Assembly (NCBI GenBank): GCA_031763025.1
Contig: JASSKH010000005.1
Location: 16,272,128 to 16,336,127, forward strand
DNA: 64,000 nucleotides
Direction: 5' to 3'
Origin: Macrocystis pyrifera
Taxonomy: Eukaryota; Sar; Phaeophyceae; Laminariales; Laminariaceae
Part shown: positions 51,015 through 63,147 of the stretch, in pieces
Layout: each line of letters opens with the position of its first letter
How positions within the stretch are numbered: the first letter of the stretch is position 1
The notes under the pieces: model-generated
What the model saw: the letters and a program-made list of their open reading frames with translations, nothing else
What the model was told of the DNA's origin: nothing
Database searches by the model: none
Position numbers and translations under genes: made by a program

Positions 51015-53752
51015 GACTCCCTTGTTGCCTTTGCATGGCGATGCGGGGACGTTTCGGCTCGTCCACGGTTTTCCGGTCTCCCCGTTCCCCGAACCGTTTC
51101 CCTTGGTATTTCTGCGCACGCTAGGCTGTCGCTATTTTTGCAGTCTGTTACGTAAAACTGATGTTTGCAGGGTTGGCCGCCAACGTAAAACTGATGTCTG
51201 CTCCCTGTCCTGATGATGTCGCGGTGAGGAGCTCCCAATCTCTGATGCCTGCAGGAGTCGTTAACGGTCCACCGTGCCGAGCACTTTCCCTTCGTGTCAT
51301 GTACCAAAGAGGTGGTTAGAGTCTTCTGTCTCGAACTGAGCCAAGGGGGGCGAGTTGCCTGAGGCAACCCAAGCACCTTCGAAGCATTGTTCTTGGTTTT
51401 GGGAGAACCGGGTCCGCATTGGACAACCCCGTCCATCCTTCAGGGAGACTGCCGACCTTTCGCCATAGCAAGCGGAATTCTCGCGGCTTGAGATCTGCGA
51501 TTTGGGCAGGCTTTTTCAGGCCTGGTTCTTCAGGTATCCCCCGGAGCATTCGTGATTCCGAGGTCTACGGTATATACCTGGTACGCAACTGCCCTGTCCT
51601 TGACAGTTGTATACATCCATTCCTGTATATGTTTCTGTTGGTGTCGGTTTTGTGAGGGGGTTGCATGTGTGATAAATACCTTCCGAGTTACATACCGGCG
51701 GGGTAAATATCGGTCAATTGCACAGCCCACAGGGTACAACGAGCCGTATGCTCTGTACTATATATGCCCCCCCCCCTCCCACCCTCACGGAAGGAACGGC
51801 GGGAAAAATTGTGGCGTATTGTTGGTTGGCGAGATCTCCGTATCCGGCCGTACGTGCCTATCCAAACTTCGTTTTAATTTCTGGGGACTCGTCAGATAGG
51901 TAGGTTTTTTTCTTGATAGATACCAGGTAGGTAGGACGTACGCGCTTGCTTGTGCGTACAACTACTGTTGTACTCGGTCTGACCAGAAACATAAGAAGAT
52001 ACGATTCGAGATCGTTTTTACTATCTGAACGTCCTCTATGTGTACGACCAGACTGGTAGTTCAGTACGGACCCGACAGCAACAAAACTAAAACACCCAAT
52101 CTGACACAAGCTTAGTATTGTGAAACAATCATTGTTTGACCTTGATCATGATAGACTACCTGGTATTTATCTACATGATTTATTGAGTGGATGTACAGCA
52201 GTAGCACCGCCGCTGACTTTTTTTTTTTCTCTTTCTCCAATTTTCTTAGCGTCCTCCAAAAGTAAGAGCCTAGCGTTCTTGTTCTTATTAGGCTGTATTC
52301 CTTATTCGCGGGCTTATACTACTGTGACGTTCCTAGTGAGGAGGGAGAGGAGGGGTGCGACTTAACCCTCTTGGGATTTCAGAGCTGAAAATTGACGATG
52401 AAAAGGCGTTCCTATCGTGGGAGGGGGGGGGAGTTACGACTAACCCTCTTGGGACTTCAGAGAGGAAAATTGACGATAAAAAATGATGACTACAGCAACG
52501 GCCACTGCGTGATTAGGCGGTAAATACGATATTGGTGTCCGGGTTACCATTCAAGGATCCGTGCAGCACGGGCGTTGCATGAGTCTACCGGTACTGCTGG
52601 GCGCTCACGGTTCAATGGTTGATGACACCAAAATTATCATTGTTTTTTGGTTGATATCTCCGGGTTCCAACGGAGTAAAGAGAGGTCGTTACGAGACAAA
52701 ATCCTATTCAACATATGTCATACGGCTTGGCACGGGCATACTATTAATACTAACAGAAGCTACCAGGTACCGGGTCTATATTACCCATCCCGGTTCAAGA
52801 GAAAACACCGGTTCAAGCGAGGTTTGCTACTGATCTGTTCATAGGCTTGACATACCTCTCTCTGTAAAATTTACGCTCAAAGTGAGACTCGCACTCCTGT
52901 CCTGCGGACGACGCCAAATGTGATCAGTCACCCAGACCATGGGTATTGCATTTGCTAAGCGTTGTCATAGTTTTCTCATCGTCTTCCTCACGAGTTGGAA
53001 GATGCGTGGTAGTGGGTTGTGCGGCATCTCGTCTTCGACTCGTTGCATAAACGATCTGGGCGCACGGTATATGTACGCAACGTGTTTATGTCATTGATCA
53101 GCTGGCAGCGAGAGCCGCGTGAGGGCGGATTGGAGAACCCATGGGGAAATAACAAGTAGTGAAGGAGGGTCTGTTGCAAATCATCTCGGTGACCACCCAG
53201 GTCGCCATCTCGAGGAGAATATCCCGCTAAAAACTCCAGCTATTGGGTCGTCAAGAGGCTAGAGAGAGCAAGGGCGGGGGGGGGGGGCGACAGATCTATA
53301 CCCATGGCATGGGGATGGAGCCTGGTTGCGGCCTGCTCTAGAATTCGAAGATCAGAGGGTAGACGGGCTTGAGATAGCGTAACAATACAGCAGCAAGAGA
53401 AAGTCAGAGCAAGGGTAAAACACGTGGACTAAACTTAGGTCGATTTTAAACCGGGTGCAGGAAACGAAGACGGATTTATGGTAGTAAACGTACCAGGTAG
53501 AGTATAGTGCCACGACTAGGAAATAACCCAACACCGTATCTAGAAGGGTATCTTTTGGAGGAATGCTTCGAAGAAAATCGGACGGAGAAAATGTGCTCAG
53601 CACGAAACCCTGTACCAGGTACCAGGTACTGGTGTGTAATACGAGCCCATGCTCAAGGTTGTTCAAGGATGGTGACACACTAAGACTCTAAGGCTTGCTC
53701 AGGTTAGGTGCTTCTGGTTGCCGGGCCCATGCAGTACCACTACCACTAGTGA
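51015..53752. other. Gene-poor region with several TACCAGGTA palindromes
   Basis: Palindromes at 51575, 51921, 52157, 52761, 53491, 53613 and 53620. A ~75 bp tandem doublet (TAACCCTCTTGGGA(T/C)TTCAG and AAAATTGACGAT) lies at 52364-52484. A G12 run lies near 53277-53288. No gene recognised. Confidence 0.5.
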
Positions 53753-54151
53753 CTATTATTATTATTATTATTATTATTATTATTATTATTATTATTATTA
53801 TTATTATTATTATTATTATTATTATTATTATTATTATTATTATTATTATTATTATTATTATTATTATTATTATTATTATTATTATTATTATTATTATTAT
53901 TATTATTATTATTATTATTATTATTATTATTATTATTATTATTATTATTATTATTATTATTATTATTATTATTATTATTATTATTATTATTATTATTATT
54001 ATTATTATTATTATTTATTATTATTATTATTATTATTATTATTATTATTATTTATTATTATTATTATTTTTTTTTTTTTTATTATTGTTGTTGTTGTTGT
54101 TGTTGTTGTTATTATTATTATTATTATTATTATTATTAATATTATTATTAT
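53753..54151. repeat. ATT microsatellite, about 400 bp
   Basis: Nearly pure ATT/TTA for more than 300 bp, then T runs, a short TTG stretch (about 54086-54108) and ATT again. The two long frames over it are homopolymers of Ile or Tyr and are not genes. The exact length may be affected by assembly. Confidence 0.95.
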
Positions 54152-62900: not shown

Positions 62901-63147
62901 ATGTCGGCGTGTACTGATGGTATACCAGGTACTGGTATACTTGGTACCATTTTTTTTATACCAGATCGTGTCCAGTATTTTTATCAAGTGCAGGCTGAAA
63001 TATTGCGAATACAAACACAAAGTACTGATGACGGTGCTGGGTATCTGGTATGTTCGAGTGCATCATGGTGCTGGTCTTGTGCACGATGTACTCCTGCACT
63101 CGCTGCCTCTTCGTCACCCCCGTTAGTTTTTTTTTTTTTGTGTTTAA
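59916..63147. other. Upstream region of the helicase exon
   Basis: C13 near 60067-60079, TACGTACGTAC runs near 60221 and 60370, and eight TACCAGGTA-type palindromes (60184, 60226, 60639, 61572, 61579, 62300, 62651, 62923). At 60607-60626 an ATG with a good context reads MSNVEI followed by GTAAGA and could be a first coding exon, but its phase does not join directly to 63484. RD copy 2 lies inside at 61925-62130. Confidence 0.45.
61925..62130 (+). repeat. Dispersed repeat RD, copy 2
   Basis: Partner of 42040-42250: ACCGTATAGCACGCAGGATA, GAGCGATGCGTCTAT and TTTTCGTTGTGTGTGTCCC. Confidence 0.6.

Follow-up and report, generated by a model that had tools for sequence, protein, structure and literature searches.

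TACCWGGTA, an abundant 9-bp palindrome of the giant kelp genome, as a candidate dyad site of a dimeric DNA-binding protein

Introduction

In a 64,000-nucleotide stretch of the giant kelp Macrocystis pyrifera (assembly GCA_031763025.1, contig JASSKH010000005.1, positions 16,272,128 to 16,336,127 of the forward strand; hereafter the window), one exact 9-bp palindrome, TACC(A/T)GGTA or TACCWGGTA (W, A or T), recurs far more often than expected, and the question is what such a word is for. From its sequence properties, we consider it probable that the word is a dyad to which an abundant DNA-binding protein binds as a dimer, a candidate factor with a general regulatory or chromatin role. Brown algae represent a separate origin of complex multicellularity, and their regulatory code is little known. 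With some 120,000 copies and symmetric flanks of its own, one sharp word could be used directly as bait for the protein that would read it, and the assemblies and resequencing data already available allow ideas on kelp genome organisation to be tested through it. A further question is how a 537-Mb genome comes to have such a number of identical short sites and how it maintains them.

Results and discussion

Abundance of the palindrome in the window

TACCWGGTA was found at 25 places in the window, 18 reading TACCAGGTA and 7 reading TACCTGGTA on the plus strand, and the form with any central base, TACCNGGTA, was found at 28. The original prediction had claimed at least 24 copies; 22 of its 24 coordinates are exact, the sites placed at 61572 and 61579 start at 61573 and 61580, and the site at 49382 had been overlooked. 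The predicted over-representation was borne out, as 60 dinucleotide-preserving shuffles of the window averaged 0.4 exact sites, with no more than 3 in any of them. Markov models of orders 1-4 expect 0.4 to 1.1 sites, and those of orders 5 and 6 expect 5.7 and 13.5, which is high partly because these models were trained on the word itself. Among all palindromes of the form N4-n-N4, TACCNGGTA ranked first in the window with 28 occurrences versus 9 for the runner-up, and the surroundings of the 28 sites were mutually dissimilar.

The predicted concentration of more than half of the copies in 51.5-63 kb proved to be real. The 11.4 kb between 51,575 and 62,931 contain 16 of the 25 TACCWGGTA sites, and none of 20,000 simulations with uniform placement reached 16 of 25 within such a length. 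At the genome-wide rate, the probability of at least 16 sites per 11.4 kb is about 1.6e-8, uncorrected for the choice of stretch. Since the motif is spread genome-wide (see below), this region is best described as a dense patch. Both overlapping pairs noted earlier are present. The sites of the window are listed below; no strand is assigned to any of them.

51575..62931, dense cluster with 16 TACCWGGTA and 19 TACCNGGTA sites; no Pfam domain above cut-off in the open reading frames (ORFs) scanned
1111..1119, TACCAGGTA
19435..19443, TACCAGGTA
21895..21903, TACCTGGTA
27624..27632, TACCTGGTA
29493..29501, TACCAGGTA
30425..30433, TACCAGGTA
33452..33460, TACCAGGTA
42298..42306, TACCTGGTA
49382..49390, TACCAGGTA, absent from the earlier list
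51575..51583, TACCTGGTA
51921..51929, TACCAGGTA
52157..52165, TACCTGGTA
52761..52769, TACCAGGTA
53491..53499, TACCAGGTA
53613..53628, overlapping pair of sites at a 7-bp offset, TACCAGGTACCAGGTA
56264..56272, TACCSGGTA, the rarer C/G-centred form
57020..57028, TACCSGGTA, the rarer C/G-centred form
57250..57258, TACCAGGTA; dispersed repeats start about 15-50 bp to the right and exclude the site
59467..59475, TACCSGGTA, the rarer C/G-centred form
60184..60192, TACCAGGTA, adjoining a TACTGCTGTA word
60226..60234, TACCTGGTA
60639..60647, TACCAGGTA
61573..61588, overlapping pair of sites at a 7-bp offset
62300..62308, TACCAGGTA
62651..62659, TACCTGGTA
62923..62931, TACCAGGTA

Genome-wide abundance

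The published giant kelp assembly is given, in the accessible part of its description, as 537 Mb in 223 contigs with 50.37% GC and 25,919 genes (PMC10498591). The genome searched here comprised 537,376,219 bp in 223 contigs. It contained 121,279 copies of TACCWGGTA, about 30 times the roughly 4,100 expected under a uniform model, so that the proposed check against a genome-wide expectation left the prediction standing. The reversed word, used as a control, occurred 2,421 times, which makes TACCWGGTA about 50 times commoner. With any centre, TACCNGGTA was found 133,388 times versus 4,445 for its reversed control; from the difference between 133,388 and 121,279, the C/G-centred forms make up about 9%. 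The two strands were equally represented (60,665 and 60,614), and the excess of A-centred sites on the plus strand of the window (18 versus 7) thus disappeared at this scale. By simple arithmetic, there are about 4.7 sites per annotated gene.

A 200-kb sample was assembled from twenty 10-kb pieces of the window's contig (L005-L024), two of which adjoin the window; together with the window, it amounts to 264 kb. In the 200 kb, TACCNGGTA was three times as frequent as the next N4-n-N4 palindrome (51 versus 17), and in a set made up of one sample from each of five other contigs it again ranked first among palindromes of this form (20 versus 7). All 314 kb sampled contained 92 W-centred sites, or about 293 per Mb, compared with 226 per Mb in the whole genome. 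The sites were mildly clustered, with a variance-to-mean ratio of 1.5 in 2-kb bins.

Most sampled sites lie outside repeated DNA, as the original prediction had proposed in describing unique surroundings and no single repeat family. Self-comparison of the 264 kb showed 24% to be self-similar, and 75 of the 79 TACCNGGTA sites fell outside this fraction and 4 inside; the mask covers repeats within the 264 kb, and a family with a single copy there would escape it. No single mobile element therefore accounts for the sampled sites, and such an origin is rejected for them by this comparison, which also revealed no common flank on even one side of the sites. Repeats near the sites of the window and the sample mostly ended short of the motif, as at 57,250. 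After masking, TACCAGGTA was the most over-represented 9-mer apart from simple repeats.

Spacing, flanks and overlaps of the sites

The two half-sites, TACC and GGTA, showed dyad symmetry with a preferred spacing. In the 264 kb, a spacer of 1 was found at 79 sites, compared with 14 for a spacer of 0 and 8 for a spacer of 2. Over spacers 0-11, those other than 1 gave 3 to 45 sites, the 45 occurring at spacer 9, where 12 were outside repeats.

Symmetric preferences extended beyond the core at helical spacing. Upon pooling both flanks of 80 non-overlapping sites and counting from the central base, we found a purine at -5 in 81%, A at -10 in 44% and A/T at -11 in 74%; the other flank positions were weaker, and the same three preferences were seen in a set of 91 sites. 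For -11/-10, the preference was also evident genome-wide, as WA was present on 95,163 of 242,558 site sides (39%) and on 42,079 sides (17%) at -14/-13, three bases further out. These genome-wide figures take in copies in repeats. The two sides of a site appear to be independent (among the 80 sites, WA was found on both sides of 8, on one side of 35 and on neither side of 37), which fits two alike subunits.

The overlapping pairs are a further regular arrangement. TACCWGGTACCWGGTA, which is such a pair at a 7-bp offset, was found at 5,620 places in the genome, whereas its reversed form was absent and chance neighbours would supply about 15 by arithmetic. In these pairs, the TA of one site occupies the -11/-10 position of its partner. 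The pairs supply about 11,240 of the 95,163 WA sides, and the fraction without them is about 36% by arithmetic. The overlapping form was also present in 9 of 2.9 million viral contigs, a count without a control that we take for chance.

One-base variants of the palindrome

In the sampled DNA, variants with a single transition numbered 72 versus 18 expected, a fourfold excess, while those with a single transversion numbered 47 versus 36 expected. The transition variants were enriched at all eight positions in the 264 kb, with small counts at some. Genome-wide, one transition class, TGCCWGGTA, for which WANNNNNTGCCWGGTA is the flank-bearing word, occurred 29,522 times, compared with 3,662 for its reversed control and an order-2 expectation of about 10,600. 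TYCCWGGTA, which combines two matching transversions, occurred 18,466 times, compared with 12,340 for its reversed control and an order-2 expectation of about 19,100. Both order-2 expectations were scaled up arithmetically from the sample.

Neutral decay of exact sites was considered as the main source of these variants and rejected. Repeat copies in the same DNA differ by transitions and transversions in a ratio of about 1 (range over identity classes, 0.7 to 1.4). Under plain decay, transversions should therefore have been about as numerous as transitions, yet they are hardly enriched. In the sample, the variants also shared the flanks of the exact sites in a graded manner: the WA fraction was 0.32 for exact sites (n=80), 0.36 for transition variants (n=73), 0.21 for transversion variants (n=51) and 0.12 for double-change variants (n=557), the last being at background. 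We read the transition variants as probable weaker yet real sites of the same kind, and their retained purine/pyrimidine pattern suggests that DNA shape may matter.

A candidate dyad site for a dimeric protein

The original prediction had compared the symmetric TACC and GGTA with the site of a dimeric binding protein, and this comparison gains support from the symmetric flanks outside the core and from the transition variants that share them. In the mechanism that we propose, TACC-W-GGTA would form the core of a dyad of about 23 bp, WA-N4-R-TACCWGGTA-Y-N4-TW, to which a homodimer of an abundant, sequence-specific kelp protein may bind. Each subunit would read one TACC half-site, probably via the major groove, and would favour A/T at the distance of a single helical turn from the dyad. 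This distance corresponds to position -10.5, where the dimer could contact the adjacent minor groove. Candidate places for such a protein would be on the order of 10^5. It might have a general part in regulation or in the organisation of chromatin, presumably in mostly non-coding DNA, either by itself or next to words like TAATA and TACAGCAGTA, and its sites may be kept up by selection.

Several observations weigh against this explanation. Other spacings are not all at background, as a spacer of 3 was found at 24 sites in the 264 kb, and a transcription factor with some 10^5 exact sites and such slight degeneracy would be unusual. Double changes were not enriched overall; the symmetric ones were slightly so (12 versus 7.5 and 19 versus 15.4 expected), the excess of symmetric double transitions, 12 versus 7.5, being small. 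The slight flank excess of the transversion variants, 0.21 in the sample and 20% genome-wide (3,785 of 18,466 with a WA flank), indicates that some decay is present. Transition and transversion variants occurred near exact sites to a like degree, and nearness therefore cannot separate the two kinds. In 11 histone gene stretches (14.1 kb, coding sequence included), we found 0 sites versus about 3 expected, a small test of one gene class.

This weak test suggests that the motif is not a universal promoter element, and a role as a core promoter element was accordingly not supported by the histone genes. The loci in question (L039-L043) contain divergent histone gene pairs with short common promoters, in which CCAAT/ATTGG boxes were seen by eye in an alignment.

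Comparison with iterated palindromes and known binding sites

CCWGG, which lies inside the core, is a classic bacterial cytosine-methylation site. One may ask whether DNA modification or biased repair makes and keeps the word with no gene-regulatory meaning, in the manner of HIP1, and we consider this unlikely. According to the accessible part of the account of HIP1 and the cyanobacterial iterated palindromes, these are likewise exact short palindromes in strong genome-wide excess, and the extreme, sharp excess in mostly unique surroundings found in kelp is of the same kind (PMC4390886). The kelp word differs in being eukaryotic and of odd length (9 bp) with an A/T centre, and its symmetric preferences at -5 and -10/-11 are unneeded by such a process. 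In most cases, as far as that same part of the account goes, HIP1 deviates more at its two end bases than elsewhere (PMC4390886). No such outer-base maximum was observed in the sampled kelp DNA, where transitions at every position were enriched, with small counts at some. The rarity of the word in self-similar DNA further suggests function or age instead of a uniformly acting process.

Returning to a dimeric protein, we tentatively entertain a broader possibility, namely that the word is for giant kelp, a eukaryote, what a highly iterated palindrome is for a cyanobacterium: a near-invariant dyad about every 4 kb that would be read by a very abundant dimeric protein and might act as a lineage-specific genome organiser. 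Such an organiser could have a reach like that of an insulator or general regulatory factor with an almost degeneracy-free site, perhaps in brown algae at large; this too is put forward with reserve.

Among known proteins, the yeast general regulatory factors Reb1 and Rap1 have abundant, sharp sites and organise promoters and chromatin, and Reb1 reads TTACCCG, which resembles half of the kelp site. Their sites differ from the kelp motif in being far fewer, non-palindromic and set in a compact genome. Grainyhead/CP2 sites (AACCGGTT) and RFX sites (GTTRCC..GGYAAC) are inverted repeats with ACC/GGT-like half-sites, and RFX half-sites take A or G where the kelp motif takes transitions; both families, unlike the kelp motif, have a spacer other than 1. 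Searches of the genome with the Pfam CP2 and RFX families gave 0 matches, and controls were equally silent, which makes this result uninformative. The LEAFY core, CCANTGG, differs from the kelp core. LEAFY-type helix-turn-helix sites are described, in the accessible part of the source, as semi-palindromic, 19 bp long and bound by a dimer (PMC4844672). A pseudo-palindromic site of about 20 bp for a dimer would thus be the shared feature, the kelp dimer being our conjecture, and the difference is that the family members are described from streptophytes in the portion of the source available (PMC6588583). No earlier account of the motif was found among the literature matches listed, with preprints and most subscription papers outside the search, and its novelty is provisional.

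Neighbouring words and a possible regulon

Short words were enriched beside the palindrome. At up to 50 bp from 81 sites, TAATA oriented towards the palindrome occurred 30 times and TATTA 25 times, versus 9.9 expected for each; within 50 bp of 79 sites, CTATTAATA was present at 5 versus 1.1 expected and ACAGCAGTA at 7 versus 1.8. This enrichment, together with the homotypic cluster at 51.5-63 kb and an open frame encoding KYVPPHLR next to it on the plus strand, would fit the binding motif of one ordinary transcription factor with a large regulon, in which case the cluster would lie upstream of a putative gene starting near 63.5 kb. A regulon motif is a special case of the dimer-site explanation, and as an account of the whole we find it improbable, as about 226 sites per Mb and about 4.7 per annotated gene are far above one regulon.

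A partner at fixed spacing was also considered and rejected, because the TAATA words were enriched out to 200 bp with no fixed distance. Two of the words seen near the palindrome are themselves dispersed in the 264 kb: CTATTAATA, with 33 of 54 copies outside repeats, and ACTGCTGTA, which is part of TACTGCTGTA/TACAGCAGTA, with 41 of 44 outside repeats.

Mobile elements

We also weighed relics of mobile elements as a source of the word, which would then be a target site, a terminal inverted repeat or an excision footprint bounded by TA on each end. The palindrome is indeed TA-flanked, its 7-bp overlapping copies resemble small duplications, and repeated units on some other contigs, among them C1, C7, C8 and C11, do bear the motif. 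Nevertheless, we judge this source quite unlikely: 75 of the 79 sites are outside self-similar DNA, nearby repeats mostly end before the motif, no conserved element end was seen on either side of the sites, and no site is present inside the Copia-like element of the window or the Gypsy-like element sampled.

The repeated unit on C1 (L003, L004) contains three motif sites in about 400 bp, one of them C/G-centred, has the same flanks at C7, C8 and C11, and gave no match in Rfam. The Copia-like element consists of pieces of a long terminal repeat retrotransposon at about 6,378-10,259 of the window on the minus strand, in which gag_2 scored above its cut-off and the integrase core and Pol_BBD just under theirs.

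A hypothetical signal in RNA

An RNA-level signal, for example an intronic splicing or recursive splice element, is very unlikely: the word does include CAG/GTA, and 25,919 genes with a usual number of introns each would have introns in numbers of the same order as the sites, but both the palindromic form and the symmetry of the flanks are features of double-stranded DNA, and the donor-like continuation GTAA was found on either strand in 0 of the 28 window sites. The earlier remark on a likeness to splice donors thus found no support, all the more as the word is equally common on both assembly strands (60,665 and 60,614); 48 of the 56 strand readings of the window sites continue as GTAC or GTAT.

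Open reading frames and other features

Among 51 ORFs scanned in 48-63.9 kb, none matched Pfam above a curated cut-off (37 of the 87 listed were unscanned), and a few weak sub-cut-off matches were disregarded; this result does not prove that the cluster is non-coding. At the sampled loci, families were assigned to 3 of 10 ORFs, namely a Gypsy-like polyprotein, a SAM-domain protein and an Arm/HEAT-repeat exon, and to 0 of 10 in a second set searched against Pfam. A codon-usage ranking gave 8 candidates only.

The KYVPPHLR frame has this peptide at 63,489-63,512 on the plus strand, directly downstream of the motif cluster. The peptide is a motif known from Ded1/DDX3 helicases; Pfam gave only one weak, unrelated sub-cut-off match for the frame. 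Inside the cluster, a (TAT)n repeat with about 132 copies and 97% matches extends over 53,754-54,151, and homopolymers of C or G, 29 to 49 bases long, are present in the window at 24,627, 38,440, 41,301, 41,389 and 46,819.

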